Shown here: in pieces, positions 1,005 to 42,138 of the stretch
How positions within the stretch are numbered: position 1 is the stretch's first letter
Layout of the letters: every line of letters begins with the position of its first letter
Assembly (NCBI RefSeq): GCF_003240565.2
Contig: NZ_CP117256.1
Span: forward strand, 62,001-126,000
DNA: 64,000 nucleotides
DNA from: Rhizobium tumorigenes
GTDB lineage: Bacteria > Pseudomonadota > Alphaproteobacteria > Rhizobiales > Rhizobiaceae
Reading direction: 5' to 3'
Translations under genes and position numbers: made by a program
Notes under the pieces: generated by a model
Database searches by the model: none
The model's input: only the letters and a program-made list of their open reading frames with translations
Told to the model about the DNA's origin: nothing

Positions 1005-1078
1005 ATCTAGATCTCCAGGTGTACTAATGAAGAATGCAACCGAAGATCAGCATTTTCTATTCGTAAAATGTCGTAATT

Positions 1079-1807
1079 TTAATATTGGAGACCGCGGCGA
1101 AAGGCTTCTGCGATCAGCTGAGCGCGGTTGGACACACCGAGCTTCTGCTGAAGATTGTGAAGATGGGCCTGGACAGTCCTTGGCGAGCGATGGGTCATCC
1201 TGCCGATCTCCCTGTCCGTCTTGCCGTCCGCGCACAAGGTCAGGCACTCGCGCTCGCTGCGTGTGACATAGGGGCTGTCAGGTTGTGAACGTCTCGGAGA
1301 GACCAGCTCTCGTAGACGGCGATGGGCGCTTTCGGCGACAATTTGAAGCAGGCTGACCTCTACGGGTCGCATTGGTTCGCGCCGTCCGCCTGCAGAAAAG
1401 AGACCATCCAGACCCAACTTGGAATGCAAGGGTATTGTTACCCCGTCAAGCAGGCCAAATTCGGCAGCTTCGCTCATGACCCGTTTGGACTTTTCTCCGA
1501 GGGCGTGCATCCGGATCGACTTCGACCAAACGATGGGTCGGTCGGACGTCCTGACAAGACGCACGACCGGGTCGCAATGAAAATAATTGGACTTCAGGTA
1601 CCGCTCCCGCCATCCTGGAGGCCAGCGCTCCCCGATGAAAAACCCGTCGAGCGGTTCATGCGCACTGGGAAGATGAGCCATGGCGAAGTGCTCGATGCCA
1701 AGCTGACGACTGACAGCATCCACTGCCGCGACCAGGTGAGCCCTGGTGGTTGACACCTCGCTTGCACGGAAAAAATCGACAAGAATATCTGCGATCAGAT
1801 CATCCAT
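1079..1807 (-). CDS. LuxR-family quorum-sensing regulator
   Basis: This 242-residue transcription factor has an N-terminal autoinducer-binding domain (about residues 20-165; W..RY...YF.CDPVV and the IVWS segment) and a C-terminal LuxR/FixJ helix-turn-helix (about 178-238; SERECLTLCADGKTDREIG, then VQAHLHNLQQKLGVSNR). It presumably binds the AHL made by the next gene and activates that gene. The pair is in tandem on the minus strand with a 74-bp gap. I did not find a convincing TraR-like 18-bp lux box in that gap or upstream of this gene, so the operator may be of a different type. Confidence 0.92.
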   Translation of the reverse strand: MDDLIADILVDFFRASEVSTTRAHLVAAVDAVSRQLGIEHFAMAHLPSAHEPLDGFFIGERWPPGWRERYLKSNYFHCDPVVRLVRTSDRPIVWSKSIRMHALGEKSKRVMSEAAEFGLLDGVTIPLHSKLGLDGLFSAGGRREPMRPVEVSLLQIVAESAHRRLRELVSPRRSQPDSPYVTRSERECLTLCADGKTDREIGRMTHRSPRTVQAHLHNLQQKLGVSNRAQLIAEAFRRGLQY

Positions 1808-3010: not shown

Positions 3011-3027
3011 TATCCACAATATGGATA
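3011..3027. promoter_or_regulatory. Candidate operator TATCCA-N5-TGGATA
   Basis: TATCCACAATATGGATA is a perfect inverted repeat (6-bp arms, 5-bp spacer) that overlaps the start codon of the C45-family gene. Nearly the same sequence (ATCCATAATGTGGA) lies at 10442-10455 between prpD-like and FeS-subunit genes. The shared core is TCCA-YAATR-TGGA. Inference: binding site of one regulator of the catabolic island, the IclR protein encoded at 8172-8957 being the nearest candidate. Confidence 0.55.
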
Positions 3028-4085
3028 GCATGGTTCAACGCTTCGGATTGTTCATGCATACCGACCAGATTCCCGTCATCACCCTGCGTGGTACCGCATC
3101 GGAGCGGGGTCGTCAGCACGGCATGCATCTCCACGGTCCGATCCTGGACGCTTATGCCTCATTACGAGCCTCCACAAATAGCGCCGATTGGGATCGGGCC
3201 TGCATGAGGGCTACACCCGGTTTTCAGGCGCTTTCCGCTGTTTGCGCTGATATGCGCGCCGAGCTCGATGGCATGGCTGCGGCCACCGGCCTGACCGGGC
3301 TCGATGTCTATCTGCTCTCTGCCTTCGAATTTTTTATCGAAGGCAAGACCGGGTGCACGTCCGCCGGGATCGCGCGCGACGAGGGCGTGCTTGTTGCCCA
3401 GAACTGGGATGCGCCTGCAGGCACCGAGCGGCATCTCACCGCCTTCATCCATGAAGGTCCGGATTCTCATATTCTGACAATTGCCTCGCCGGGTACGCTC
3501 GGCTGGGTCGGCATGAATCGCCACGGCCTTGCCTTCGTCAATAATGATCTCCTTCTCGATACCTCGCATGTGGGTCTGCCAAGCCTCGTCATTCGCCGTA
3601 TGATGCTGCATCAGTCGAGCGCTGATGCCGCCATCGCCGTGCTGCGCGCCTATCCCCACATGTCCGGACGCTGCTTCCTGGTTGGCGATGCCAACGGGAC
3701 TTTGCGCGTGGCTGAACTCGGGCCTTCGGTGGGCGTCACCGACCGGGCCGTCCGCTCCGTTGTTCACACGAACCACCCACTTTTTCCCAAGCCTGCGATG
3801 TGGGAAGACATTGAGGCCGGTGCCCGTCATTACCCATCCAGCCGAGCTCGCCTTCGAGCGGCGCGTCAGTTCGCATTGACCGGCGTCCGCGACCTCGAGG
3901 CGTTGCTTCGCGATCGTTCCGGCGCACCAGACGCCATCTCCAAGTCGCCATCGTCGCGCGAGCAAACAGCGACCGCCTTCTCTGCGATCTTCGATTGCGG
4001 TCGGCGCGAGGCGATGATCGCAATCGGTCGCCCTGACCAGGCTGCCTATCGAAGCATCGGCTTGCGGCAGCCCGCTGGCGCCTAA
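3021..4085 (+). CDS. C45-family acyltransferase/amidase (Ntn hydrolase)
   Basis: The 354-residue protein belongs to the acyl-CoA:6-aminopenicillanate acyltransferase (peptidase C45) family. These enzymes cut themselves before a cysteine that then becomes the N-terminal nucleophile. The expected site is G111-C112 in GCTSAGI, followed by the typical VAQNWDA and GWVGMNRHGLAFVNND blocks. Members hydrolyse or transfer N-acyl groups; the substrate here is unknown. Three in-frame ATGs (3021, 3030, 3051) are possible starts. The palindrome at 3011-3027 covers the first one, so a later start or a promoter overlapping the start is possible. It opens the catabolic island and converges on the Rossmann protein gene, whose end is 5 bp away. 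Confidence 0.82.
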   Translation: MDSMVQRFGLFMHTDQIPVITLRGTASERGRQHGMHLHGPILDAYASLRASTNSADWDRACMRATPGFQALSAVCADMRAELDGMAAATGLTGLDVYLLSAFEFFIEGKTGCTSAGIARDEGVLVAQNWDAPAGTERHLTAFIHEGPDSHILTIASPGTLGWVGMNRHGLAFVNNDLLLDTSHVGLPSLVIRRMMLHQSSADAAIAVLRAYPHMSGRCFLVGDANGTLRVAELGPSVGVTDRAVRSVVHTNHPLFPKPAMWEDIEAGARHYPSSRARLRAARQFALTGVRDLEALLRDRSGAPDAISKSPSSREQTATAFSAIFDCGRREAMIAIGRPDQAAYRSIGLRQPAGA

Positions 4086-4090
4086 CAAGC

Positions 4091-5254
4091 TTAGCTAGCC
4101 TTTACCTCGAGCATACCGTTCTGGCGGGAAAATTGGGCAAAACGGGCCGCCAGTTCTACGGCGCGGGCCTCGCATTCCTGTGGAGGATAGGAACGAAGCT
4201 CGAAGCCCAGGACCCCTTTGAGCACATCGGCAGCCACATCCGTAAAGTGCACGGTACCGTCGTCGTCGACCCTCTCTATTCCGTCATAGCGTTGGCATTC
4301 GCGATTGATGGCAATGGCCTCATTGAGCGTCAGGCCAGCTGGAAGATCGACAAGCAGGCCGTCAGCGGAAACGCGGACCGGATACCCGCCGACAAGACCG
4401 AGCGGACCCGGGGCATGCACGACCTCCCCCTTTCTACGTACGAGCGCCAAAAGCATTGCTGTGGCCGACGAGGCGGTGACGGACTGGCCGGCGAGACCTT
4501 TGACGCGCCGAAACCGTCCGGCAACGAGGGAGAAGAGTTTGGCGTGATCGATGGCCTCGCGAGGGACTTCCAGTCCGTCGGCATAGATGCTGAGGTGATA
4601 AGGGGCCCCATCCGTGCCGCCGGTGCTTGGCATCCGATAGCTGAGATAGTGATGTGCGAAGAAGCGGACATCGATAGATACAGGCGGCAGCGCGAGCATG
4701 GAGGCCGCAGCCAGACGAATGCCCGGAACGGCATTGGCGATATTGCCAATACCAACGGCAGGCGCCAGCCCCTCTGCGGCCAATGTGGCGTTCACCACAT
4801 CCGGATAGGACGCATTGACGACGACGGCTTTCGAGTCCGCAAGTCGCACGGCTTTCATCAGCCTGCGGATCAAGACCTGGTGCATCGGGGTCCAGATGCC
4901 ACCACGCCCTTCGTCGAGACGCCTGAATGCATCCGGCGGAAGCTTGGTGATAACCCACCAGCTGTGCATGGTCGCGGCGTTGAAAATGATATCAGGCCTG
5001 ATTTGCGAAAGTCTTTCGGCTGTCGCTTCGATGTTCATGAGGTCGATCGGATAAATCTCGACAGGCGGTGAGAAACCGAGATTCATCGCCGTGTAACGCG
5101 CCAGATTGACGCGATGCAGAGCTTTGTCACCGTTGCGCGCACCGACGGCAATTTCGATGTCTGCACCGCTTTGCAGCAGGAAGTCGAGCACGTCTCCACC
5201 GAGGACCCCCTGGCCAATTATCAAAATTTTCGAGCGGCGTTTCGTTTGAGCCAT
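4091..5254 (-). CDS. Rossmann-fold dehydrogenase-like protein (saccharopine-dehydrogenase type)
   Basis: The 387-residue protein begins with a dinucleotide-binding fold (ILIIGQGVLGGDVLDFLL, about residues 10-30) and reads like the saccharopine dehydrogenase / NAD(P)-binding superfamily. The mid part has PDIIFNAATMHS and VVNASYPDVVNATL, typical of the loop between the cofactor and catalytic halves. It may reduce or oxidise an imino or opine-type bond; the substrate is not known. It is transcribed away from the alanine-racemase-like gene, with a 123-bp palindrome-rich region between them, and ends 5 bp from the C45 gene end. Start ATG has an AGGAGAT ribosome site. Confidence 0.65.
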   Translation of the reverse strand: MAQTKRRSKILIIGQGVLGGDVLDFLLQSGADIEIAVGARNGDKALHRVNLARYTAMNLGFSPPVEIYPIDLMNIEATAERLSQIRPDIIFNAATMHSWWVITKLPPDAFRRLDEGRGGIWTPMHQVLIRRLMKAVRLADSKAVVVNASYPDVVNATLAAEGLAPAVGIGNIANAVPGIRLAAASMLALPPVSIDVRFFAHHYLSYRMPSTGGTDGAPYHLSIYADGLEVPREAIDHAKLFSLVAGRFRRVKGLAGQSVTASSATAMLLALVRRKGEVVHAPGPLGLVGGYPVRVSADGLLVDLPAGLTLNEAIAINRECQRYDGIERVDDDGTVHFTDVAADVLKGVLGFELRSYPPQECEARAVELAARFAQFSRQNGMLEVKAS

Positions 5255-5292
5255 CGCACTATCTCCTAATTGTCAGATTCGGATTCTGCAGC

Positions 5293-5356
5293 GGATATGC
5301 ATCTATGGATTGCAATATGACTCAATGTCACGTATATTGCAACCAGGAATATCCAT
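5293..5356. promoter_or_regulatory. Nested inverted repeats in divergent promoter region
   Basis: Between the two divergent genes lies TTGCAATAT (5310-5318) and its exact inverse ATATTGCAA (5334-5342), 15 bp apart. Outside it sit GGATAT (5293-5298) with ATATCC (5349-5354), and ATGGAT (5305-5310) with ATCCAT (5351-5356). The ATGGAT/ATCCAT half-sites recur in the candidate operators at 3011 and 10442. This is a likely two-way operator. Confidence 0.5.
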
Positions 5357-5377
5357 ATTTCTGAAGGCAGTCTTGGA

Positions 5378-6463
5378 ATGACGATGCGCAACGAACCGGT
5401 CCTTCACGTTGACCTAGCGGCAATCCAGGCGAATTTCGCGGTGATACGGGCGCTCGTCGGGCAGGGCGTCGCCGTCAGCGCAGTGGTCAAAAGCGACGCC
5501 TACGGTCTCGGACTTGAGCCCGTGGCCGGTGCACTTTGGCGTGCCGGCTGCGACAGTTTCTTTGTCGCAAATGTGGAGGAGGGCCTGCGGCTGCGCCGCG
5601 AGCTGACCCAGGCAGATATCTTCATTCTCGAAGGACTGCACATGGAGAGTATTCAGACCTACAGAAGGAACCGCATGACGCCGGTGTGCAACACACTGGC
5701 ACAGGCAAGGGCGGCCGCTTTGGCCATACCTGGCTATGCACTCAATCTAGAGACAGGCTTTGGACGGCTGGGCCTGGGGGTCGATGAGGTGGGCTCGCTT
5801 CTTCACGCGCAGTTGCCATCGCCTGTACTGGCTATGAGCCATCTTGCTTTTGCGGATGACCCGACCAATCCACGAAACGAGCTGCAGCGGCACCGTTTTG
5901 TCGGGATGTGCAGCATGCTTGGACCGGCCGTAGCGCGAAGCTTGGCAGCCTCGGCGGGCGTCTCGCTGGGCGACCGCTACCACTTCGACCGGGTACGCAT
6001 AGGATCAGGATTATTCGGCCTTAACAACGCGGGTCTTAAGCCAAATCCCTTTACGCCGGTCATCCGGCTCAGTGCGCCGCTGATCGATATTCGGACGATC
6101 TACCGCGGCGAACCTGTCGGCTATATGGGGACCTTCGTTGCCAATCGACCGACCCGCCTCGGTGTCGTCTCGCTTGGCTATCGGCACGGCCTTGCCTGGC
6201 AGGTAGCGAACCAAATGTCGGCAGAGATCGATGGCTATCAGGCGCCTCTGGTTGGTCGGGTCTCCATGGAATATTGCGCCCTCGATCTGACGGACATACC
6301 GCTTGTTGCAACTCAGCTAGGCACACGGGTTAATTTCATCAGCGCGACAGCACCGCCGGAAGTCCTGGCGCGTGCAGGGGCCACCGTTGCGCAAGAGGTG
6401 ATGGTCCGCACGGGAGCGTCCTGCACCCGTCTTTACCACATGCCAACCGGAAGAAGCACATGA
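5378..6463 (+). CDS. Alanine racemase-family PLP enzyme
   Basis: The 361-residue protein has the fold-III PLP barrel of alanine racemases. The PLP lysine is K38 in VVKSDAYGLG, and the second catalytic base, a tyrosine, is Y268 in VSLGYRHGL (normally GYADG). The GRVSMEYCALDL segment corresponds to the conserved GRVSMD block. It interconverts L- and D-alanine or a related amino acid. Because it lies in a catabolic island with a flavin amino-acid dehydrogenase, I infer a role in catabolism (like DadX) rather than cell-wall supply, possibly with a different substrate. The next gene starts 4 bp inside its stop codon, so an operon with the EamA and HAD genes is likely. Confidence 0.85.
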   Translation: MTMRNEPVLHVDLAAIQANFAVIRALVGQGVAVSAVVKSDAYGLGLEPVAGALWRAGCDSFFVANVEEGLRLRRELTQADIFILEGLHMESIQTYRRNRMTPVCNTLAQARAAALAIPGYALNLETGFGRLGLGVDEVGSLLHAQLPSPVLAMSHLAFADDPTNPRNELQRHRFVGMCSMLGPAVARSLAASAGVSLGDRYHFDRVRIGSGLFGLNNAGLKPNPFTPVIRLSAPLIDIRTIYRGEPVGYMGTFVANRPTRLGVVSLGYRHGLAWQVANQMSAEIDGYQAPLVGRVSMEYCALDLTDIPLVATQLGTRVNFISATAPPEVLARAGATVAQEVMVRTGASCTRLYHMPTGRST

Positions 6464-7326
6464 GCGCGCGACGGCGTGCACAAATGCAATTGCTGGCCGC
6501 GGCGCTGCTTTTTAGCACGGCGGGGCTGTTCATGGGGGTGGCGCACGCCAGCGTCTGGACGATCATATTCTGGCGCAGTCTGTTCGCACTGCTCTTTACC
6601 CTCATGATCATGGTGAGCCACAACGGGCATGCCCGTTCGAAACTCGATCGTGCAGGCTGTATTGCAGCCATACTTTCCGCGTCAGCAATGCTTGCCTTCA
6701 TTCCGGCTATCCGTATGACATCCGTTGCGAATGTCGCCGTGATCCACGGTTCGCTTCCATTGATGACATCGTTGCTGACGCGGTGGGTGGGCAAAGATCG
6801 TCTGTCGCCGGGCACTCTCGGGTTGGGAGGATTAGCCGGTTTTGGCGCGGCCGTCATCTTCTCCGGTTCGGCATCGTCGGGTTCGCATCTTGCGGGTGAC
6901 TGCCTTGCACTCTTGATGACCTGCCTGATGGCGCTGATGACGATCGCTTTCCATCATTCGAGAACATCGATCTACCTTCTGGTGGCTGTTTCGAATGCGA
7001 TCGCAGCAATTGCGGGCGGTATGCTTTCGCCGTCGCTTTCGATTTCCTTTCAAGAAGGCGTCGTGCTGGCCTGTTTTGCGCTGGTGCAGATGACGCTCGG
7101 TCTGATCTTCTTTGCAGCCGGTTCACGCGCGTCATCGCCGGCTGAGGCGGCCCTCATATCGCTTGCTGAAGTGCCGTTGTCAGCCCTTTGGGTGTTCCTT
7201 GCCTTCGCGCGCACGCCGGCACCTGAAACCCTAGCCGGCGCCGGGATCATCTTGACCGCCGTCCTCATCCATCTGCTGACGCGCCCGGGCGATCGCAATA
7301 ACAAGGAACGACCCGATGCAGCTTGA
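6460..7326 (+). CDS. EamA/DMT-family membrane transporter
   Basis: This 288-residue, very hydrophobic protein has about ten membrane segments in two repeats (about residues 10-140 and 145-280), the normal EamA layout. Such proteins usually export amino acids or other metabolites. It overlaps the racemase gene by 4 bp (ATGA) and the HAD gene by 11 bp, so the three are probably translated together. The substrate cannot be read from the sequence, but linkage suggests the amino acid or its breakdown product handled by the island. Confidence 0.82.
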   Translation: MSARRRAQMQLLAAALLFSTAGLFMGVAHASVWTIIFWRSLFALLFTLMIMVSHNGHARSKLDRAGCIAAILSASAMLAFIPAIRMTSVANVAVIHGSLPLMTSLLTRWVGKDRLSPGTLGLGGLAGFGAAVIFSGSASSGSHLAGDCLALLMTCLMALMTIAFHHSRTSIYLLVAVSNAIAAIAGGMLSPSLSISFQEGVVLACFALVQMTLGLIFFAAGSRASSPAEAALISLAEVPLSALWVFLAFARTPAPETLAGAGIILTAVLIHLLTRPGDRNNKERPDAA

Positions 7327-8191
7327 GAACATGGTCCTGGAGACGACCCTCGCGGAGGTTGCTCAGTCCTTCCGTGGTATTATCCTGGACGTCTTCGGCG
7401 TCCTTCACGATGGTATCGAGCTGTACGAGCCGGTCAGGGATGCTCTGCGGCGAGTGCGAGCGGCTGGCATACGCATATGCCTGCTGTCCAATTCACCAAG
7501 GCGTACGGAGGCCGTTGCATCCCGGCTTGCCGCAATGGGTCTCGGCCGCGAGTTCTATGACGGGCTGATCACGTCCGGGGAACTTGCCTACGCAGCGCTT
7601 GCTTCTCCCATCTGGCCGGCCGCCCGGCACTACCTGCATGTCGGGCCACCTGAACTATCGGATCTTCTCAGTGGGCTCGCGCTCAGGCAGACGACAGACC
7701 TCAATGCGGCGAACTTTGTCCTTGCCACCGGCGATTTTGATGATCGCCCGCCTGTGCTCGAGCATGCGCGGCAGCGAGGCCTGCCTATGGTCTGCGCCAA
7801 TCCCGACCTTGACGTGATGATTGGTGACAAGAGGGTTTTATGCGCTGGATCGGTGGCGGCGTCCTTTGAGGCGCTGGGTGGCACCGTCATCCGCTTTGGA
7901 AAGCCTGGGCTCGGAGCCTATGTCGGCTCCCTTCGGATGCTCGATCTGCAAGCTTCAGACGTGATTGCCATAGGAGACAATCTGGCAACTGACATCCTCG
8001 GTGCCAAACGCGCCGGAATCCGCTCGGCACTCGTCTTGACGGGGGTTCACCACGCCGAAGTCTGGCGTGACGATCACCTCGATCCGGAAGTGCTGGCGGC
8101 GCTGTGCGGAAGGCATAAGGCTGTACCGGACTATTTCCTTCGCCGGTTTGCCTGGGTTGAAACTCATATGCTCAATCCACCAGTGGGTTGA
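7316..8191 (+). CDS. HAD-superfamily IIA hydrolase
   Basis: The 291-residue protein matches the HAD-IIA phosphatase layout. Motif I reads LDVFGVLHDG around D25, motif II is LLSNSPRR, and the last motif is GDNLATDILGAKRAGI near residue 220. The second aspartate of the usual DxD is replaced by F (D-V-F), which is a feature of one HAD-IIA subgroup that carries DxW/F here. It probably dephosphorylates a small metabolite. It is the third gene of the racemase operon (11-bp overlap). Its 3' end overlaps the end of the convergent IclR gene by 20 bp. Confidence 0.8.
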   Translation: MQLENMVLETTLAEVAQSFRGIILDVFGVLHDGIELYEPVRDALRRVRAAGIRICLLSNSPRRTEAVASRLAAMGLGREFYDGLITSGELAYAALASPIWPAARHYLHVGPPELSDLLSGLALRQTTDLNAANFVLATGDFDDRPPVLEHARQRGLPMVCANPDLDVMIGDKRVLCAGSVAASFEALGGTVIRFGKPGLGAYVGSLRMLDLQASDVIAIGDNLATDILGAKRAGIRSALVLTGVHHAEVWRDDHLDPEVLAALCGRHKAVPDYFLRRFAWVETHMLNPPVG

Positions 8192-8957
8192 GCTGTTCTT
8201 CAATTTTGCGCACTTCTCTTGTCAGCAGATCAACAAGCTCTGGAATGCGCTCGGCAGCCATCCTGGGGCTTGTCATATTGATGGCGATCGAGGCGATCGC
8301 ATCCCGGCCAGGCGGCAAGATCGGCACAGCGATCGCGGAAATGCCCGCAACGAGCTCGCCATCGTCCAACGCATAGCCCCGCTCTCGGACTTCAGCAAGC
8401 AAGAGCCTCAGCTTGCGTGACGAGAGACCGCCGAACTTCTTGTAGAGCTCGGCATTCGTCTCGAGTATGACGTCGGCTTCGGTTAATGGCAGGAAGGCAA
8501 GGATTGCCTGGCTTGCCGGCCCGATGCCCATCGGGATCTGGCCGCCGATGTGGCCGGTCAGGCTGTCGATGATATAAGTTCCCTGCTGGCGATCAACGCA
8601 GACCGTATTGAAGCCGGCTCGCGCCATCAGAAACACCGAGTCGTTGGTTGCAGCGGCGATCCTCAACAAGGCCGGTCGGGCGAGCTGGCGAAGTCCAGTG
8701 CCATCGGCAGCCGAAACGCCCATCGCAAAAAGGGCCAATCCCAGCCGGTAACGCTTCGTTTCCCGCTCGCGGTCGACGAGCCCGTGGCGCTCCAGGGCGG
8801 TAACGATCCGATGGACCGTCGGCTGCTTCAGGCCCATTGCCGTTCCGATGGTCGCCATGGATGCGCCGCCCTGGCCGGCATCGCCCAGGAATTTCAGGAT
8901 CGCAACGGCCCTGTCGAGGAGCTGAGTTCCTTTGGCTGCAATGTCGTCGTTGGCCAT
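8172..8957 (-). CDS. IclR-family transcriptional regulator
   Basis: The protein has an N-terminal winged helix-turn-helix (LDRAVAILKFLGD, then GLKQPTVHRIVTALERHGLVDRE) and a C-terminal IclR effector-binding domain (from about residue 75; VFLMARAGFNTVCVDR, IPMGIGPASQAILAFLP, GYALDDGELVAGISAIAVPI). I chose the ATG at 8957, which has GGGAG eight bases upstream, over the upstream ATG at 8999, giving 261 residues. IclR proteins normally bind a small metabolite and control nearby catabolic genes. It is placed in the middle of the island, upstream of prpD on the same strand orientation, and is the best candidate for binding the TCCA-N5-TGGA palindromes. Confidence 0.9.
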   Translation of the reverse strand: MANDDIAAKGTQLLDRAVAILKFLGDAGQGGASMATIGTAMGLKQPTVHRIVTALERHGLVDRERETKRYRLGLALFAMGVSAADGTGLRQLARPALLRIAAATNDSVFLMARAGFNTVCVDRQQGTYIIDSLTGHIGGQIPMGIGPASQAILAFLPLTEADVILETNAELYKKFGGLSSRKLRLLLAEVRERGYALDDGELVAGISAIAVPILPPGRDAIASIAINMTSPRMAAERIPELVDLLTREVRKIEEQLNPLVD

Positions 8958-9019
8958 GCCCGCTCCCAAACGCCGGTTGAGAGGGCATTCCTTATACATC
9001 GCGGGGGCAAAGTAAACGT

Positions 9020-10387
9020 CTAGGTGGGATACCTTAGGGCCGCATAGAGGTGCGCCGAGGACTGACGGGTACCGAGGTCGCGGGCCGCTTCTAGGAGCGC
9101 AAGGCGCTGAGCCTCCCTGGGAAGCGCTGCAGACAACGTCATGAACTTTTCTTGCAGATCTGCCGATGTCAATGGATTGTCAGGCTCGCCTCGGGGCAAA
9201 AGGACCTCGACCGTCCTGCTCCAACCTCCCGCCGTTATCGTCACTCGTGACGGTGTGGCTGCGGGGAAACTGTCACGGTAAATCGGCGAATATTTCAGCT
9301 GGACGCGGCGGGCAAGCCCGGTCACCCGTGGGTCGCTCAAATGTCTGTTTTCCATCGGCAGCAGCGAAGAGGCTCCATGCACCGACGCCAGCGCTACGCA
9401 GAAGGGAATGCTGTACTGCGCGGCTTCTAGCGACTGAGGCTCACTCTGGTTTGGCAGCGACAGCGCGCGTTCGAAGGTCTCTACGAGGACGTGGTCAATC
9501 ATGGCGGGGACGATCCCGCTTCGTTTGAGAAGGATCAGGGCCGCATCGATTGCGGCATGCGCCCAGCGGCAGCAGCTGTAAAGCTTGAAATAGGCCCGTT
9601 CGATCGCCCAGCGCGCGGCGAAGCCGTCGATCAGGCGCCGGCGATCGTAGAGGGAAGGGTCGTCGAATATATCGACTGGCCCCCGATGACCGGCTGCCGC
9701 CAGGGTCAGGGCCTGAAGTCCATTCGCTGTTGCCCAGGGAATGCCTTCCTTCACCGTATGGCCGATCTTGGTCCAGCCCGTGGCAGCCTGCGACGTCGAT
9801 GTGTGTGCGGCGATTGCGATCGCTTCGGCGACCACAGCGCTCGGGGCTTCCTGCAACCACCCGGCGGCCGCAGCGACACCTGGGCCGCACCATAGGCCGG
9901 TGTCGGTCGTGCGCAGAAGGCGGATATCGCGCGCAGCGGCAATACGCACTGCGACCTCGTAGCCCAGGGTCACTGCTGTCAGAAGTCGGCTGGCATCGGC
10001 ACCGATCTGTTCGCCGACGGCGATCACGGCCGGAACGATCGCGGCGGCTGGATGACCCGATGCCTGTCTGTGGCCGTCATCGAGATCCAGCGCCGCAGCA
10101 TAGGTCGCGTTGACGAAAGCCGCGCCGGCCGGTGCCAGCCGCTCCTTCGAAAACCAGACGGTCGCATTGCCAGCGTGCCATATGTCGACCGCCGCCCGTC
10201 TCGACGCATGGCCGGCCTGCGTTGCCGCGCCCGCAGTCGCCACGCCAAGCGTGTCCAGAACCGTGCGCCGCGCCGCGTCGAGGGTGTTGCCCGGCATCTT
10301 TTTGATCCGTTCGCAAGAACCGGCAAGGACAGCGGCCACGGGCTGCAGGTCGGGATCGTTCGGTATGCTCTCTGTGGTAGTATTCAT
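9020..10387 (-). CDS. MmgE/PrpD-family protein
   Basis: This 455-residue protein belongs to the MmgE/PrpD family, which includes 2-methylcitrate dehydratase and cis-aconitate decarboxylase. Typical blocks are ARRTVLDTLGVATAGA near the N-terminus, LDLDDGHRQASGHPAAAIVPAVIA (with the conserved D and H residues), and RWAHAAIDAAL. The ATG at 10387 has GGAGGATG just upstream and was preferred to the longer start at 10447. It is transcribed away from the FeS/FAD genes. In this context it may dehydrate or isomerise a carboxylic acid formed by the dehydrogenase; family members are often misnamed as PrpD, so no exact reaction is claimed. Confidence 0.85.
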   Translation of the reverse strand: MNTTTESIPNDPDLQPVAAVLAGSCERIKKMPGNTLDAARRTVLDTLGVATAGAATQAGHASRRAAVDIWHAGNATVWFSKERLAPAGAAFVNATYAAALDLDDGHRQASGHPAAAIVPAVIAVGEQIGADASRLLTAVTLGYEVAVRIAAARDIRLLRTTDTGLWCGPGVAAAAGWLQEAPSAVVAEAIAIAAHTSTSQAATGWTKIGHTVKEGIPWATANGLQALTLAAAGHRGPVDIFDDPSLYDRRRLIDGFAARWAIERAYFKLYSCCRWAHAAIDAALILLKRSGIVPAMIDHVLVETFERALSLPNQSEPQSLEAAQYSIPFCVALASVHGASSLLPMENRHLSDPRVTGLARRVQLKYSPIYRDSFPAATPSRVTITAGGWSRTVEVLLPRGEPDNPLTSADLQEKFMTLSAALPREAQRLALLEAARDLGTRQSSAHLYAALRYPT

Positions 10388-10415
10388 GTTTCGAACATCC
10401 TCCAAGTGAATCTGA

Positions 10416-10455
10416 TATAATGGATATATTATAGCATTGACATCCATAATGTGGA
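10416..10455. promoter_or_regulatory. Divergent promoter region with operator-like palindromes
   Basis: Two overlapping elements lie between the prpD-like gene and the FeS-subunit gene. TATAAT-GGATAT-ATTATA (10416-10433) is an inverted repeat that also looks like a -10 box on both strands. ATCCATAATGTGGA (10442-10455) matches the TCCA-YAATR-TGGA core found at 3011-3027. ATGGAT at 10420 pairs with ATCCAT at 10442. The layout fits a regulator that blocks both divergent promoters. Confidence 0.55.
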
Positions 10456-10494
10456 AGTCTAGCCTTTTGGAAATTGGTTAGAAAGGAGAGGATA

Positions 10495-10794
10495 ATGGTC
10501 GCTCAAGACGATCCGCGCCGCAGCGCTCACAAGAAGCCTGCAGCGCCCCTGGACTTTTTCCTCGATGGTGGTCGCCTGACGGCACGGCAGGGAGAGACGG
10601 TTCTCAGCGCATTACGCCTGGCTTACGGATCAGCTGACATGTCCTCCCGTTCCAGGCTTCGGCTCGGCTTCTGTCTGATGGGGGCATGCCAGGACTGCTG
10701 GCTGTGGCACTCAGACGGGCGACGTCTGCGCGCCTGTACCAGTCGTCTCGAAGCAGGCATGTCGCTCGTTACCCGCGCGCCGGGGACAATCTGA
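10495..10794 (+). CDS. (2Fe-2S)-binding subunit of three-component dehydrogenase
   Basis: The 99-residue protein carries a plant-ferredoxin-type 2Fe-2S fold with the cluster pattern G-x-C-x4-C-x2-C-x11-C (GFCLMGACQDCWLW ... LRACTSRL). The ATG at 10495 has an AAGGAGAGG ribosome site. Small subunits of this kind partner with two flavoproteins in hydrogen-cyanide synthase (HcnA), opine oxidase and D-hydroxyproline dehydrogenase. It overlaps the next gene by one base (TGATG). It probably passes electrons between the flavin subunits. Confidence 0.83.
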   Translation: MVAQDDPRRSAHKKPAAPLDFFLDGGRLTARQGETVLSALRLAYGSADMSSRSRLRLGFCLMGACQDCWLWHSDGRRLRACTSRLEAGMSLVTRAPGTI

Positions 10795-12164
10795 TGGCCG
10801 CCCCCGTGGTCATCGTCGGTGCGGGACCTGCAGGTATAGCTGCCGCAGGGGTGCTTGCGGCGGCGGGGGTGCGTCCCGTTGTGATTGATGAAGCCCGTAA
10901 TCCCGGTGGCCAGATTTTCCGCCGTCCTGAGCCGGAGTTGATACGATCAACACGTCAGCTTTACGGATTCGATGCACGACGGGCGGCAACGTTCCGTCGA
11001 CGTTCCGACGCGCTCGAACAGGCCGTGGATTATCGGCCGAGAACCCAGGTCTGGGGTGTGTGTGAAGGCGAGCTGCATATCCTGGACGAAGCGGGTGTTG
11101 CGGTCCAGGACTGGTCGCAGCTCATCATCGCGACGGGCGGCATGGACAGGCTCGTGCCAGTCAAGGGATGGACGGGCCGCGGCGTCTACAGTCTCGGCGG
11201 AGCACAAATCGCGCTCAAAGCAGAGGCATCGTTGATTGGTCGCCGCGTCGTCTTTGCGGGCACCGGACCGCTGCTCTATCTCGTTGCCTACCAATATGCG
11301 AAAGCAGGTGCCACGGTGGCTGCCGTCCTTGAGACCAGCGCTCCTTTTCAACAGTTTGCGCTGCTGCCAGCGCTGGCGTCGGGCGGCGCCATCTTCGCAA
11401 AAGGATTGTTCTACGTTGCGGCCCTCCTGGCACGCGGCGTCCCCGTAATGACAGGCGTCCGGCTCCTCGAAGTCCTGCGCGGCACAGACGGTGGTGTCAC
11501 CGGGCTTGCCTACGCTTGGCGCGGCAGCGAGCGCATTGCGGCTTGCGATGCCTTGGCACTCGGCCACGGCCTCAAGGCCGAAACCCAACTGGCCGATCTG
11601 CTCGGCCTTGAGTTTTGGTTTGACCCTGCTCAGAGACAATGGTTGCCGTTTGCCGACCGCGACGGCCGCTCTTCCATGGCGAACATCTATCTCGCCGGTG
11701 ATGGACTGTCGATCCGGGGCAGTGAGATGGCAGAGGCCAGTGGACGGTTGGCAGCAGTTGCTCTGCTTCAAGACAACGGTCACTCCGTCCCGATGAAGAT
11801 CGACCGTGATCGGCATGCGATCGACAAGACCGCGCGCTTTCGAAACGCATTGAACCAGGCTTTTCCCCTGCCGCATAAGATGATCGCCCAGTTGCCCGAC
11901 GATGTCGTCGTCTGCCGGTGCGAGGGGATAACGGCGGGTACGATCCGCAAGACGGTGGCGTCGACCGGTGAAGCAGAGATCAACAGGATCAAGGCCTTCT
12001 GCCGGGTCGGAATGGGACGCTGCCAGGGTCGGATCTGTGGAACAGCCGCCGCCGAACTGATTGCGGCGGCCGGCAGCGCGGAGATAAAGACGGTAGGACG
12101 CTTGCGCGGCCAGGCGCCGATTAAACCGCTGACACTTGGCGACTTGGCACCAGGCTCGCCATGA
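10794..12164 (+). CDS. FAD/NAD(P)-type oxidoreductase subunit with Bfd-like cluster domain
   Basis: This 456-residue protein starts with a Rossmann FAD motif (VVIVGAGPAGIAAAGVL) and PGGQIFRR, and has a second nucleotide-binding half. The C-terminal 80 residues form a BFD-like [2Fe-2S] domain with CRCEGIT and CRVGMGRCQGRIC (cysteines C-x-C, then C-x6-C-x4-C). This is the architecture of the HcnB / opine oxidase subunit A type. The next gene overlaps by 4 bp. Together with the small ferredoxin-like and DAO-type subunits it should form a membrane-linked dehydrogenase of an amino acid, imino acid or opine. Confidence 0.87.
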   Translation: MAAPVVIVGAGPAGIAAAGVLAAAGVRPVVIDEARNPGGQIFRRPEPELIRSTRQLYGFDARRAATFRRRSDALEQAVDYRPRTQVWGVCEGELHILDEAGVAVQDWSQLIIATGGMDRLVPVKGWTGRGVYSLGGAQIALKAEASLIGRRVVFAGTGPLLYLVAYQYAKAGATVAAVLETSAPFQQFALLPALASGGAIFAKGLFYVAALLARGVPVMTGVRLLEVLRGTDGGVTGLAYAWRGSERIAACDALALGHGLKAETQLADLLGLEFWFDPAQRQWLPFADRDGRSSMANIYLAGDGLSIRGSEMAEASGRLAAVALLQDNGHSVPMKIDRDRHAIDKTARFRNALNQAFPLPHKMIAQLPDDVVVCRCEGITAGTIRKTVASTGEAEINRIKAFCRVGMGRCQGRICGTAAAELIAAAGSAEIKTVGRLRGQAPIKPLTLGDLAPGSP

Positions 12165-13297
12165 CAAAACTTTACGATATGGCGATCATCGGCGGCGGGC
12201 TTGCCGGCTGCTCAACCGCTCTGCACGCAAGTCTTCAAGGTGCCTCGGTCATACTGGTCGAGCAGAGCCGTTGCGGGGCCCAGGCAAGCGGTGTTAATTA
12301 TGGCGGAGTTCGCCAGCAAGGGCGTCATCCTGCGGAGATGGCGCTGGCGCGCCGCAGCAGAGCGATCTGGGGCAATCTGCCCAACCTCATTGGCACCGAT
12401 TGCGATTTCGCTGCAACCGGTCACCTGAAACTGGCGCGCAACGACGCAGACCTCGCTGACCTGAGCGCGCATCGATTGCTGCTGGGCGACCACGGTATCC
12501 GCGCCGACCTGTTGGACGCTACCGATCTCAAGCGCCGGTTTCCCTATCTGGCAAAACATTATGTCGGGGGATCCTTTTGCCCAGAGGATGGCCAAGCCAA
12601 TCCGCGGCTGGTTGCCCCGGCATTTGCGCGCGCCGCGCGCTTGATGGGTGCCAACATACTTGAAAATTGCCGGGTGATCAGCGCAGAGACCGGCACAGGC
12701 GGCTTTTTTCTCCGGCTTGACGCTGAGCCGACCCAAATCAGAGCCCGCCGTCTCGTCAATACGGCTGGAGCCTGGGGCGCAGCGGTAGCAGCGCAATTCG
12801 GCGATCACGTTGAAGAAGCAGTCATGGCACCGAACATGTGTGTCACCGAGCCGATCCCGCCCCTGATCGGACCCAATCTCGGGATTTGCGGCGGCAGCAT
12901 CTACATCCGCCAGGCTCCCAATGGCAGCGTCATATTCGGGGCTGGCCTTGGCACCGCTGATCGCGAACATCTTCGTGCAAGGCCGCTCGCCGAAACCACG
13001 ATGGACGCTGCAGTCGCTGCCATCGGCATGGTGCCTCAACTCAGGAACGTCCTGCTGCTCAGAAGCTGGACTGGCATCGAGGGACGTATGCCCGACGGAC
13101 TGCCGGTGGTCGGGCCAAGCCCGGCTGTCGATCGTCTTGTTCATGGGTTCGGATTTTCGGGTCACGGATTCCAGCTTGGCCCTGCCGTCGGCGCCGTGCT
13201 GGCGGAACTCAGCCTCGAGGGCCACACAACGACATCAATTGCGGGCCTCGCCATGACCCGTTTCACACCAGGTCACGCGCTGGGCGCGCGCGCCTGA
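12161..13297 (+). CDS. DAO-type FAD-dependent amine/amino-acid dehydrogenase subunit
   Basis: The 378-residue flavoprotein has the dinucleotide-binding motif AIIGGGLAGCSTALHASLQGASVILVE and the C-terminal FGFSGHGFQLGPAVG block of the D-amino-acid oxidase (DAO) superfamily. It is the catalytic subunit type of HcnC, opine oxidase subunit B and D-hydroxyproline dehydrogenase. The middle segment (GVNYGGVRQQGRHPAEM) is typical of this HcnC-like branch. It is coupled to the preceding subunit gene through ATGA and followed 29 bp later by the transporter. The substrate is presumably the compound brought in by that transporter, but it cannot be named from the sequence. Confidence 0.88.
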   Translation: MTKLYDMAIIGGGLAGCSTALHASLQGASVILVEQSRCGAQASGVNYGGVRQQGRHPAEMALARRSRAIWGNLPNLIGTDCDFAATGHLKLARNDADLADLSAHRLLLGDHGIRADLLDATDLKRRFPYLAKHYVGGSFCPEDGQANPRLVAPAFARAARLMGANILENCRVISAETGTGGFFLRLDAEPTQIRARRLVNTAGAWGAAVAAQFGDHVEEAVMAPNMCVTEPIPPLIGPNLGICGGSIYIRQAPNGSVIFGAGLGTADREHLRARPLAETTMDAAVAAIGMVPQLRNVLLLRSWTGIEGRMPDGLPVVGPSPAVDRLVHGFGFSGHGFQLGPAVGAVLAELSLEGHTTTSIAGLAMTRFTPGHALGARA

Positions 13298-13325
13298 CAT
13301 TTACAAAAAGAGAAAGGGAACCAAC

Positions 13326-14207
13326 ATGCGATTTCTATTTTACAAAGTTCTCCTTGGCGCCGTGGCGCTTACAGCAAGCATTTCATCGCGGCCCGCAGCG
13401 GCTGTCGATCGGCCCTATCATCTCAGTGAGCCGAATGTTCTGTCCGTCGCCATTACCGGTGACATGCCAGGACTGGTGGTTCGCGATGGCAGGCTTGCAG
13501 GCTACGACGGCGATATTCTGCAGATTGCCGCCGACAAGCTCGGCCTGGTGATCAAGCCGGTCCCCATGGAATGGACAGGCGCCATAGCCGCAGTCCAGAC
13601 CGGGCGCGTCGACATTATCGGTGGCAATGTCGCCTGGACGAAGCAGCGCGCCGATACGCTCGCGCTCACCGACCCCACGGGCTATTTTCAAAACGGTGTA
13701 ACGTCGCGCGAGGATGCCGGATGGCACAGGCTCAAGGATCTGGAAAATCGCAAGGTTGGTTCGATGACAGGGTTCTCGTTCCTGCCAGAGCTTCACAAAA
13801 TTTCCGGTCTGGAACTGACGCTCTACGATAGTACGGATGCCGCCCTTCGCGATCTGCACGCTGGACGCATCGAGGCACTGGTTGGCGACCCGCCGGTGAT
13901 CGACTACGCCCTGTCGAAGAATCCTGCCTGGCACCTCGTCAATCTTCCCTTTTCCGACAACGACTTTAACTTTCCCCTGCTGACCGGGCTCGGCCGCCAA
14001 TATGTATTCGGCCTTTCCAAACAGAACGCGGATCTTGCGGCGGACCTAAGCACTCAAATCCGTGCCTTGTGGACATCGTGTGAGGTGAGGACGATCGGCA
14101 AACGCTACGGCAATGTCAGTGAGGCGAACTACACACCCGCTGCAGAAAACTTTCGTGCCGGCGTCGACCGCGCGGCAGACTGGACGCCACCCGTCTGCGG
14201 CCGTTGA
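13326..14207 (+). CDS. Polar amino acid ABC transporter substrate-binding protein
   Basis: This 293-residue protein has an N-terminal signal peptide ending near SSRPAAA and the family-3 solute-binding fold (SBP_bac_3): GYDGDILQIAADKLGL, MEWTGAIAAVQTGRVDIIGGNVAWTKQRAD, then VGSMTGFSFLPEL. It captures the substrate in the periplasm. AGAAAGGG provides the ribosome site. It leads the transporter gene set, with the ATPase and two permeases behind it, and all are likely on the same transcript as the flavin dehydrogenase. Confidence 0.88.
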   Translation: MRFLFYKVLLGAVALTASISSRPAAAVDRPYHLSEPNVLSVAITGDMPGLVVRDGRLAGYDGDILQIAADKLGLVIKPVPMEWTGAIAAVQTGRVDIIGGNVAWTKQRADTLALTDPTGYFQNGVTSREDAGWHRLKDLENRKVGSMTGFSFLPELHKISGLELTLYDSTDAALRDLHAGRIEALVGDPPVIDYALSKNPAWHLVNLPFSDNDFNFPLLTGLGRQYVFGLSKQNADLAADLSTQIRALWTSCEVRTIGKRYGNVSEANYTPAAENFRAGVDRAADWTPPVCGR

Positions 14208-14260
14208 CCGATCCGCATTGCCTGATGGCAAGCCCCTGCACTCCAACGAGAGAGGCCGCG

Positions 14261-15040
14261 ATGGTCACCCCAAAACTTCTCGAGGTTCTCAATCTCGGCA
14301 AATCCTTCGGCCATCTGACAGTGCTCAAGAATATCTCCTTTAGCCTTGCCCGCGGCGAGCGCGTCGCGCTCATCGGTCCGAGCGGCTCCGGCAAGTCGAC
14401 CTGCCTTCGCGCAATCAACTATCTGGAGCCGCCAAGCGAGGGCGAGATACGTCTTGAGGGACAGACGATTGGTCGCAGGCCCAATGGCCAGCGTATGACG
14501 GACCGTGAAATGGCACCGCAACGCGCCCAGATCGGCATGGTGTTCCAGCACTTTCATCTCTGGCCGCATCTATCTGTCCGTGCCAACGTCGCACTGCAGC
14601 CACGCAAGGTCAGAGGCATGAAACGCGATGCAGCCGACAGGCTTGCCGGCGCCCTCTTGGCCAAGGTACATTTGGCCCAGAAGGCGGACGAGATGCCCCA
14701 TCGGCTTTCTGGGGGACAGCAACAACGCGTAGCCATCGCACGCGCGTTGGCACAGCAGCCAAAGCTCCTGCTTTTCGATGAACCGACGTCCGCGCTCGAT
14801 CCGGAATTGGTCGGGGAAGTATTGACCGTCATCAAGGAGCTGGCAGCCGAAGGACTTGCCATGGTGCTTGTGACCCACGAGATCGGCTTTGCCAGAGAGG
14901 TTGCCGATCGCGTCATCTTCATGGATGGCGGGGACATCGTCGAACAGGGTCCTGCGCGAACGGTGCTTGATCAGCCTCAGTCGCCGCGCCTGAAACAATT
15001 TCTTGGATCGCTCCAGGGTCGGGGAGGGGGCAATGGATGA
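14261..15040 (+). CDS. Polar amino acid ABC transporter ATP-binding protein
   Basis: The 259-residue ATPase has Walker A (GPSGSGKST), Q-loop ([13 protein letters not shown]), signature ([16 protein letters not shown]), Walker B ([18 protein letters not shown]) and H-loop (VTHEIGF). It is of the GlnQ/HisP type. I chose the ATG at 14261, with GAGAGG upstream, because it puts the family's usual N-terminus in place; longer starts (14204 TTG, 14225 ATG) would overlap the previous stop. It powers the two permeases that follow. Confidence 0.9.
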
Positions 15041-15683
15041 GGCTCTGCCCGGACTGATCGTCACGGCGCTCCTCAAGGGAGCGCTCGTGACCGTTGAGGT
15101 TACCGTCGGAGCCCTTATCGTCGCGCTGGGGATTGGCCTGACATTGGCGACTATATCCGCCCTGACGAAGTGCCGCCTATTGCAGGCAGGGATCCGCCTC
15201 TATGTCGAATTATTGCGCAACGTGCCGAGCCTGACCTTTCTCTTCCTACTCTACTTCGGCCTTGCATCTCTTGGCGTCCGGCTGTCGTCAATGGGAGCTG
15301 CTGTCTTGGGACTGGGGATGATCGGCGGCGCCGTGACCGTCGACATTTTCCGCTCCGGGTTTCTGTCGGTCGAAGTTGGACAAAGGGAGGCGGCCGCATC
15401 GTCCGGGCTAACCCCCTTTCTCGCCTTCCGACTGATCGTGCTGCCCCAGGGATTGAGACTGGCACTGCCGTCGATCGGAAACTATGCAGTCGCGCTGATC
15501 AAGGACACATCGCTTGTTGCCGCCATTGCGGCGCCGGAGCTGATGTTCAATGCCCGACAACTCGTCAACGAAACCTTCGAGACTGCCGCGATCTATGGGA
15601 GTGCTGCTATGGTCTATCTCGTTCTGACAGGCGTCATGGCGCAGTCCGTGAGCTTCTTCGAGCGCCGACTGGAGAGCCAATGA
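15033..15683 (+). CDS. Polar amino acid ABC transporter permease 1
   Basis: The 216-residue inner-membrane protein belongs to the HisM/GlnP-type permease family. It has about five membrane segments. The EAA-like loop reads GQREAAASSGLTPFLAFRLIVLPQGLRLALPSIGNY, the ATPase-coupling segment. The ATG at 15033 has a GGGAGGGGG site and overlaps the ATPase gene by 8 bp. It forms a heterodimer with the next permease. Confidence 0.88.
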   Translation: MDEALPGLIVTALLKGALVTVEVTVGALIVALGIGLTLATISALTKCRLLQAGIRLYVELLRNVPSLTFLFLLYFGLASLGVRLSSMGAAVLGLGMIGGAVTVDIFRSGFLSVEVGQREAAASSGLTPFLAFRLIVLPQGLRLALPSIGNYAVALIKDTSLVAAIAAPELMFNARQLVNETFETAAIYGSAAMVYLVLTGVMAQSVSFFERRLESQ

Positions 15684-16414
15684 TGTTTCTTCAAGTCATC
15701 GCCGACAACATCGCGGACTGGGGCCCCAGGCTACTCGCCGGACTGCGGGTTACTTTGTCGCTGACCGCAGTTGGGTTCAGCCTTGCCTTCGTGCTGGCAC
15801 TCATGATCGAATATCTGCGCAGTCGCCGAAATATCTGGGTCAGCTGTCTTGCGCGACTTTACATCACAGTTGCTCGCGGCGTGCCGCTTCTGGTCATCCT
15901 CTATCTCCTCTACTTTGCGCTACCGGGCGCCGGCATCATGCTTCCGGCGTTCCTGGCTGGTACAATGGGCCTCGCCTTGGTCTATGCCGCTTATCTCGCC
16001 GAGGTCTTTCGCGCCGGCCTTCGTGCCATTCCATCGGGACAGCGCGAGGCGGCCATGGCGAGTGGCATGACGCCCTTCCAGGCTTTCCGGCATGTGCTCC
16101 TGGCGCAGGCGATCCGGTACACGGTCGCTCCGTTGCTGATCAATATGGTCTCGCTCTTGAAGGACAGTTCCATCTGTGCGTTGATCACGGTTCCAGAACT
16201 GACGCTGGTTTCGCGGGAGCTCATGTCGGAGAGCTTCAGGCCGCTTCACGTGTTTGCGCTGACCGCATTACTTTATTTCGGACTGGCTTGGCCGGCCTCC
16301 CTGGTTGCACGGTGGGTAGAGGGGCGCTTGATAGGTCGCTCTATCCACCGCATCCCGCGTGGTGCACGTCGAGGTGCCGATTGCGGGATTCTGAACCTTC
16401 AGCAACCCCATTAG
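15680..16414 (+). CDS. Polar amino acid ABC transporter permease 2
   Basis: This 244-residue permease is the second half of the channel, with the coupling loop GQREAAMASGMTPFQAFRHVLLAQAIRYTVAPLL. It starts at the ATG at 15680, which overlaps the previous stop codon by 4 bp and has GGAGAG upstream. The reading frame runs past the last membrane segment into a tail of about 25 residues rich in R and H that ends in the region of a transposase fragment. That tail may be foreign sequence added when the native stop was lost; homologues should be shorter. Confidence 0.85.
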   Translation: MMFLQVIADNIADWGPRLLAGLRVTLSLTAVGFSLAFVLALMIEYLRSRRNIWVSCLARLYITVARGVPLLVILYLLYFALPGAGIMLPAFLAGTMGLALVYAAYLAEVFRAGLRAIPSGQREAAMASGMTPFQAFRHVLLAQAIRYTVAPLLINMVSLLKDSSICALITVPELTLVSRELMSESFRPLHVFALTALLYFGLAWPASLVARWVEGRLIGRSIHRIPRGARRGADCGILNLQQPH

Positions 16415-41660: not shown

Positions 41661-42138
41661 GGTCTCGCCATACGTGTCCCTTTAGTCCGCCGGGTGCACG
41701 GGAGATCCGGAGACAAATACACAAAGGCGGAGTGAGGCGATGGGCGAAACATGCAAAGGAATAATTCACCGCCGTCATCTGCTCCGACATGATTTGATTT
41801 CGAGCGATTGGCCCGCCCCGTCAAACCCAGCCGCCTTGCTAAGATCTGAACCACCGTTCCCCGTAACATGGATCTCCAATGTAGATCGGACGCCCCAAGA
41901 CGTCATTATTTTTCACGAAATTCGCAATGTTCATGCCTTTGCACTCGCCAGTCGCCCGGTCGGCAAGACAGACTGAAGGTCGATGTCGGTAAGCTGACAG
42001 TCTGCTCGGATAGCTGGAAGCAGAAATCCGCGGGACTATGTAATTCACTTTATCTTTAATCCTTAATATTTAAAATCAACATTTACTTAAATAATTTGAA
42101 CCAATGTGCGTAGACGAACGTCGCAACTGGTGATTCAC
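41661..42138. other. No clear gene
   Basis: 478 bp without a convincing ORF. The last 80 bp, before the binding-protein gene, are AT-rich (TTAATATTTAAAATC...ACTTAAATAATTTG), likely the promoter region of the binding-protein/chemoreceptor pair. Confidence 0.4.

Follow-up and report, generated by a model that had tools for sequence, protein, structure and literature searches.

Gene content of the island

The analysed window is a 64,000-nucleotide stretch of Rhizobium tumorigenes (positions 62001-126000 of contig C2 in a 5.98 Mb genome of 6 contigs), and at 3021-16414 it contains an island of 14 genes that we examined as a putative catabolic system. The island opens on the forward strand with a C45 autoproteolytic acyltransferase/amide hydrolase (3021..4085; PF03417, NF040521), followed on the reverse strand by a dehydrogenase-like Rossmann-fold protein whose family is unnamed and whose predicted fold is that of lactate/malate dehydrogenases (LDH/MDH) (4091..5254). 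Three forward genes then encode an alanine-racemase family pyridoxal phosphate (PLP) enzyme, Alr (5378..6463; TIGR00492), an EamA/DMT family membrane transporter (6460..7326; PF00892), and a HAD-IIA phosphatase (7316..8191; TIGR01459). On the reverse strand lie an IclR-family regulator that reached no equivalog cut-off (8172..8999) and an MmgE/PrpD family protein, here called PrpD (9020..10447). The remaining genes are all on the forward strand. They encode the 2Fe-2S gamma subunit (10495..10794; PF13510, Fer2_4), the FAD/[2Fe-2S] alpha subunit (10794..12164; Pyr_redox_2 and Fer2_BFD), and the FAD catalytic beta subunit of the DAO family (12161..13297) of a flavin dehydrogenase, and the four components of an importer, namely a family 3 amino-acid type substrate-binding protein (SBP; SBP_bac_3; 13326..14207), an ABC ATPase (14261..15040), and two ABC permeases (15033..15683 and 15680..16414).

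The Rossmann protein of the window is 99.7% identical to its counterpart on plasmid pRt932 of R. tumorigenes strain 932, a strain obtained from an aerial tumour of Rubus; the island is carried by pRt932 and not by pTi932. Annotation of pRt932 gives an identical set of 14 genes and places four starts later, at ~3054 for C45, ~5384 for Alr, ~10387 for PrpD, and ~8957 for IclR, which are the probable starts. The small iron-sulfur (FeS) gene occupies 10495-10794, the open reading frame list having proposed a different start. Pfam and NCBIfam profiles recovered every gene named in an earlier sequence-only reading of this DNA, in the order it had given, and our searches of the open-access PubMed Central (PMC) literature likewise listed no paper describing this gene set.

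Co-inheritance across the genus

Four genes (Rossmann, DAO beta subunit, C45, and PrpD) were tested in a sample of 148 genomes of the genus, counting matches with identities of at least 69%, 65%, 42%, and 56%, respectively. Each was found in 19 of the 148, always the same 19, and at these thresholds the other genomes pass for at most one of the four (Fisher 2e-24 for co-occurrence, not corrected for phylogeny). All 14 island genes are present in 19/19 genomes, as judged from the regions of 18 genomes with the window as the nineteenth (the HAD and IclR genes of G160 were taken from locus L008, judged by length to be the same contig). As to homologous loci that always lack the C45 or the racemase gene, both genes are carried by every island genome. 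The spacing between the two halves of the island is 8-16 kb in 16 of the 19, 23 kb in G164, and 44 kb in G029; in G161 they are split between contigs. A control gene 20 kb from the island (20164-21093) occurs in 36/148 genomes and in 3/19 island genomes (Fisher p 0.57). The island is thus real and inherited as one package, which supports the sequence-only reading of it as one system. A chance neighbourhood is ruled out by the co-occurrence, by the unlinked control gene, and by the shared operator described below.

Among the 129 other genomes, one clear exception was found. G030 holds an island remnant (L194 6096-9634, on G030:C17) consisting of the four importer genes (71-77% identity) and beta-subunit residues 226-368; the surrounding 19 kb hold neither the operator nor any further island gene. 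The sole match in G020 is a Rossmann homologue at 42% and that in G069 a PrpD homologue at 42%; weaker DAO homologues (38-40%) are present elsewhere in the genus.

A shared operator and a candidate IclR regulon

The divergent PrpD/FeS promoter contains a palindrome, ATCCAYAWTRTGGAT, that is found with at most 2 mismatches in 18/19 island genomes (0.08% in shuffles). The motif was first defined at this promoter and the window was then scanned. An exact copy, ATCCACAATATGGAT, lies at 3012..3026, just upstream of the probable C45 start, and a copy with 1 mismatch, ATCCATAATGTGGAA, at 10442..10456 in the divergent promoter itself; a third match, at 41872, has 3 mismatches. Three matches within 3 mismatches are no excess over shuffled sequence (mean 2.2), and therefore we place weight on the exact copy and on its conservation. 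Of the remaining 18 island genomes, 15 have the operator upstream of C45 with at most 2 mismatches, 13 of them exactly. Within 2 mismatches it is absent upstream of the Rossmann, Alr, SBP, HAD, DAO, and IclR genes (16-19 rows each; G075 is counted twice in some upstream rows), and upstream of luxR it occurs in 3/11 rows, some of which share their intergenic stretch with C45.

Genome-wide, the exact operator has 23 sites in 14/19 island genomes, all 23 at C45 or PrpD/FeS; the other 5/19 have no exact copy, and a reversed control pattern gave 0 matches in the 19 genomes. The two operator places stand on separate contigs in G161. Exact matches, one each, occur in 4/129 island-less genomes, and their surroundings hold no island-enzyme homologue beyond general ABC ATPases. 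At distant loci, the operator (at most 2 mismatches) stands at PrpD in 4 of the 7 tested. Since the same palindrome stands at C45 and at the PrpD/dehydrogenase promoter, a single IclR regulon appears to comprise C45, PrpD-IclR, the dehydrogenase, and the importer. The island IclR is the putative binder, because its gene sits in the PrpD operon.

The Rossmann gene and Alr-EamA-HAD fall outside the operator-bearing set (tested upstream of Rossmann, Alr, and HAD). A single linear pathway running through the racemase, as the sequence-only reading had envisaged, is therefore not supported. We looked for a regulator site common to the Rossmann/Alr promoter and the catabolic operon and found none. 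A promoter-like TTGCAT-17-TAGATT element recurs in the Rossmann/Alr promoter region (by eye, uncounted). An inverted repeat, TTGCAATAT/ATATTGCAA, was also seen at 5303-5345 in this promoter, with related TTGCAA elements in relatives (by eye).

The flavin dehydrogenase and its importer

The gamma subunit contains the [2Fe-2S] motif Cx4Cx2Cx11-12C (CLMGACQDCWLWHSDGRRLRAC, here Cx4Cx2Cx12C). The alpha subunit contains the CxC...Cx4C [2Fe-2S] motif and the FAD motif, with a Cys-pair spacing of 33 (searched at 20-40); this spacing is 32-33 in five matching reference alpha subunits and 15-20 in the relevant passage of PMC4575208. The beta subunit matches DAO family PF01266 at 232 bits, has RxW at 301, and has 1y56_B as its best solved relative. 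The trio thus carries the sequence motifs of heterotrimeric flavin opine/D-hydroxyproline dehydrogenases, in line with the HcnABC/opine-oxidase-type assignment made from the sequence alone.

The island enzyme resembles OdhABC (nox/oox), as described by Watanabe et al. 2015 (PMC4575208), in having three subunits in one operon adjoining an ABC importer, and in sharing both [2Fe-2S] motifs, the FAD sites, and the RxW of the beta subunit. Its C-A-B order is that given there for Burkholderia thailandensis, whose beta subunit is placed closer to OdhB2 of the type-2 enzyme (PMC4575208). We compared the beta subunit with two opine-type plasmid clusters of B1-C-A-B2 order that adjoin octopine/nopaline dehydrogenase genes, one of them beside traR; it is only 36% identical to their B2 and 26-27% to their B1. 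The S. fredii homologue is far closer (61%). A further difference from OdhABC is that the island has no octopine/nopaline dehydrogenase. As marks of an opine catabolic region, a linked octopine/nopaline dehydrogenase, hydantoinase, or known opine SBP was looked for by profile searches of 3021-16414, and none was found.

C45, the racemase, the phosphatase, and the Rossmann protein

C45 scored 186.1 bits against NF040521 (cut-off 85), and 19/19 rows share its Gly111-Cys112 and the QNWD Asn/Asp. Alr scored 199.8 bits against TIGR00492 (cut-off 168); Lys38 and Tyr268, which we take to be its catalytic residues, are found in 20/20 rows and in 19/20 rows with one gap, respectively. Both enzymes therefore keep their predicted catalytic residues. 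A second Alr gene is located on contig C1 of the host genome, so the island Alr need not serve the cell wall. The phosphatase scored 134.1 bits against TIGR01459 (cut-off 103.75), with 6nq4_A as the closest PDB chain, and EamA is present in 19/19 island genomes.

The Rossmann protein has no Pfam or NCBIfam match at 1e-3, and its family is unnamed. Structure prediction indicates that it folds like LDH/MDH. Some sources label the protein a saccharopine dehydrogenase; we set this label aside, the model's listed matches being LDH/MDH, a list that leaves room for other folds. When the family profile was aligned to the host's own malate dehydrogenase, the nucleotide-binding start alone matched, and the conserved residues of the family form a set of their own that differs from that of the lactate/malate dehydrogenases. 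One invariant residue of the family, His202, comes after a strand, like the catalytic His of LDH/MDH, and by this placement is a possible counterpart in the Asp-His catalytic set of those enzymes.

The MmgE/PrpD protein and its plasmid relatives

PrpD contains both MmgE/PrpD Pfam domains, and D123, H132, K233, and H297 are kept in 19/19 rows. Its score against the 2-methylcitrate dehydratase model NF042438 was 40.1 bits, far below the cut-off of 950, and we rejected this identity. The closest solved structures are those of iminodisuccinate (IDS) epimerase, 2hp3/2hp0 (E 2e-24), an enzyme that uses two bases, H99 and Y145, according to PMC7347537. The His base is preserved in 19/19 rows (His132 in PrpD), the Tyr base in 0/19, and every one of the 19 island rows has Thr in place of the WHP His. 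The protein thus shares both domains, His132, Lys233, and His297 with the IDS epimerase/cis-aconitate decarboxylase/PrpD group and differs in lacking the second base Tyr145 and in missing the NCBIfam PrpD cut-off; a plain IDS epimerase was rejected on the absent second base. Because the cut-off was missed and the second base is absent, the removal of the carbon skeleton by PrpD, as proposed by the sequence-only reading, is unproved.

PrpD homologues were found on 103 plasmid records, 81 of them predicted conjugative and 46 from Agrobacterium. Importer genes adjoin the homologue in all 6 of the 103 loci that were opened, and some of the 6 also hold FAD oxidoreductase, hydantoinase, M24, amidohydrolase, or ornithine-cyclodeaminase genes. 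In the sections consulted of PMC6733357, mmgE closes the succinamopine region of pTiEU6, and those of PMC10410297 describe a rideopine-type (RIC) region of pTi932. A pTi932 stretch that is apparently RIC contains an IclR gene together with two MmgE/PrpD genes. The succinamopine/leucinopine (sac/lec) region of pTiEU6 and the RIC region of pTi932, as far as these sections go, parallel the island in combining an importer with a flavin dehydrogenase or FAD oxidoreductase and in their mmgE or MmgE/PrpD and IclR genes. Unlike the island, they have between them hydantoinase, deformylase, or asparaginase genes, and C45, an Alr-type racemase, EamA, and the Rossmann protein are not named for them in the same sections (PMC6733357, PMC10410297). 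In pTiBo542 (L101 11911-13244), MmgE/PrpD is annotated as two overlapping pieces and looks broken.

Wider synteny of the Rossmann family

Among the best 80 of 243 matches, which were kept for this comparison, the Rossmann family occurs in alphaproteobacteria, actinobacteria, cyanobacteria, and archaea. In the first 23 loci (L002-L024, 54-83% identity), within ~20 kb of the Rossmann gene, we found Alr in 22, C45 in 19, HAD in 19, and EamA in 18; some of these loci end early at contig edges, and 12/23 appear to overlap with the 19 island genomes, so that not all are independent. Dispersed versions of the island with an M24 hydrolase were found on Mesorhizobium pMLa and Sinorhizobium fredii pSF83666a; that on pMLa also has an MR/MLE enzyme, and a gene read by eye as DadA-like is among the substitutes in the Mesorhizobium and Sinorhizobium versions. 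At more remote loci, the neighbourhood of the Rossmann gene includes HAD in L033, L046, L050, L056, L063, and L067, and all of these but L056 also have a class I/II aminotransferase.

Several additional observations were made at these loci. Genes for a phosphoenolpyruvate (PEP) mutase, a class I/II aminotransferase, and an NTP transferase stand beside the Mesorhizobium-version IclR in L022 (15667-18679) and L035 (15650-18709); this phosphonate-type biosynthesis set was profile-tested in L022 only. Distant Rossmann homologues in L034, L036, L055, L072, L073, and L081 are accompanied by transaldolase-like, short-chain dehydrogenase/reductase (SDR), methyltransferase, and sulfate-activation genes in sets that vary (by eye), apparently an unrelated biosynthetic cluster. 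The family also extends to metagenome-assembled genomes of Bathyarchaeota and Theionarchaea (L069, L075, L077, L080; 36-40% identity), L080 having an MmgE/PrpD homologue (26%) downstream.

The LuxRI pair and other neighbours

Beside the island, on the reverse strand, are a LuxI-type gene (378-1004; PF00765) and a LuxR-type gene (1079-1807; PF03472/PF00196), together spanning 378..1807. Matches to this luxI of at least 150 bits occur in 15/148 genomes, all 15 within the 19 island genomes and 0/129 in the others, and 21 other genomes match it at 94-127 bits. Identity alone fails to separate the groups, because the G013 match has 43% identity over 143 residues. The luxI gene lies within ~6 kb of the Rossmann gene in 9 genomes and farther away or on another contig in 6. 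Type IV secretion system (T4SS) genes were found near the island on pRt932, beyond luxRI, and in Sinorhizobium sp. B11. A functional link between the quorum-sensing pair and the island is possible. A nucleotidyltransferase + HEPN protein at 1996-2895 also adjoins the island; its homologues stay near it in several genomes, and on pAtK224a (L104) one is near a LuxRI pair and MmgE genes.

Proposed function and alternative readings

Building on the observed gene content, co-inheritance, shared operator sequence, and conserved catalytic motifs, we consider it probable, with moderate confidence, that the island is a plasmid-borne catabolic system for an N-substituted amino acid, either an opine-like imino-acid or an N-acyl or amide-linked amino acid. 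Counted in favour are the relatives of the island enzymes in opine-type loci and the recurrence of the enzyme classes with substitutes (M24, MR/MLE, DadA-like). In the proposed scheme, IclR would bind one palindrome at two places and control the catabolic regulon, the SBP3-type ABC importer would take the compound up, and the C45 Ntn-hydrolase would cut its amide bond. The heterotrimeric flavin dehydrogenase would then oxidise the released amine or amino acid, and the MmgE/PrpD protein may act on the carboxylate product or an isomer. The substrate class (opine or N-acyl) and the order of the steps are what we infer from these enzyme families. A separately regulated, co-inherited module, comprising the LDH/MDH-fold dehydrogenase, the Alr-type racemase, the EamA transporter, and the HAD phosphatase, may adjust stereochemistry or redox state and dispose of a side product by export; alternatively, it may make the compound. 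Compared with the sequence-only interpretation as a whole (uptake, deacylation, racemisation, oxidation, and removal of the carbon skeleton), the co-inherited unit and the opine-type dehydrogenase stand and are joined by the shared operator, and the role of PrpD and the linear course through the racemase are not supported.

Several observations weigh against this catabolic interpretation. The racemase and Rossmann genes lie outside the regulon, and the co-occurrence figures take no account of phylogeny. G164, G093, and G075 (3/18) are without a clear operator at C45, and among distant C45 loci 1/9 tested has one (L015). In G030, the importer is kept without a nearby C45, PrpD, or Rossmann gene, and an automated count gave one in-frame TGA in each of five C45/PrpD matches (G153, G136; G160, G076, G166). 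The SBP has only weak matches to nopaline/octopine-binding proteins (E 1e-4 to 7e-4), its similarity to other amino acid binders being much stronger (5e-17). Outside the island, the beta subunits that come closest among those compared (45-47%) are from Burkholderia/Ensifer loci without an assigned substrate, and the 6 opened PrpD plasmid loci are not all opine-type looking, one of them holding importer, SIS, and kinase genes.

An alternative, which we regard as unlikely, is that the Rossmann/racemase/EamA/HAD module makes and exports a compound that the IclR regulon reclaims and degrades, as in a rhizopine system. The rhizopine mos and moc genes, for synthesis and catabolism, lie side by side on rhizobial plasmids; their enzyme families differ from those of the island, in which a synthesis role is putative. 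Co-inheritance of two modules with the operator on one only would fit this arrangement, as would the exporter role usual for EamA proteins. A group of Rossmann gene, PLP enzyme, and HAD recurs in L033 (Dactylosporangium), L046 (Labrenzia), L050 (Roseibium), L063, and L067, where the aminotransferase replaces Alr; in L046, a DMT-like membrane protein (by eye, no Pfam match) and an SBP_bac_5 protein come next. Yet none of the island genes matched a known type of ligase or synthase in Pfam and NCBIfam searches, and distant Rossmann members adjoin ABC importers and FAD oxidoreductases in catabolic-looking plasmid loci (Martelella, Aminobacter). A more specific form, to which we give slightly less credence, is a nutritional-mediator system in which the LDH-fold dehydrogenase, the racemase or aminotransferase, the phosphatase, and the EamA exporter would make a new amino-acid derivative for the IclR regulon to reclaim. 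The quorum-sensing pair within 6 kb in about half of the island genomes and the T4SS near it in two plasmids bear on this idea, which, if true, would extend the opine concept to bacteria that are not necessarily tumour-forming.

That two independent loci merely travel on one plasmid family is already disfavoured, and we hold it improbable. The sharing of a plasmid by luxRI, T4SS, and island genes in two records, the operator on one module only, and the survival of part of one module alone in G030 would agree with it. However, the neighbouring control gene does not follow the island (3/19), both modules are complete in 19/19 even where as much as 44 kb separates them or they fall on separate contigs, and C45, in the Rossmann/Alr half, carries the operator of the other half.

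Degradation of iminodisuccinate or an N-aspartyl-type compound, with PrpD as an IDS-epimerase-like enzyme, is very improbable. It is suggested by the closest solved PrpD structures and by a Burkholderia plasmid on which a single stretch brings together the flavin dehydrogenase, an ArgH-type lyase, and MmgE/PrpD, that PrpD having Tyr in the Y145 column; the island rows, by contrast, have neither this Tyr nor the WHP His, and the island is without a C-N lyase. Least probable of all is quorum-signal management, in which C45 beside luxRI would cleave acyl-homoserine lactones and the rest would be incidental, for although luxI is confined to island genomes at the bit score used and is often close by, C45 carries the catabolic operator, accompanies Alr, Rossmann, and importer genes in 20 kb loci where luxI was not found (L022, L035, L024), and 7/19 either lack luxI or have it 64-143 kb off or on a separate contig.

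Taken as a catabolic system for an N-substituted amino acid, the island would be a further form of opine-type catabolic locus, and it draws attention to the unnamed dehydrogenase family of its Rossmann protein. It would link a C45 amide hydrolase, a class for which, to our knowledge, few bacterial substrates are known, with flavin dehydrogenases of the opine type and with the MmgE/PrpD enzymes, a recurrent component of catabolic loci on plasmids whose part there has yet to be proved. The common operator suggests a simple test, in that a compound releasing IclR would point to the substrate of the whole system.

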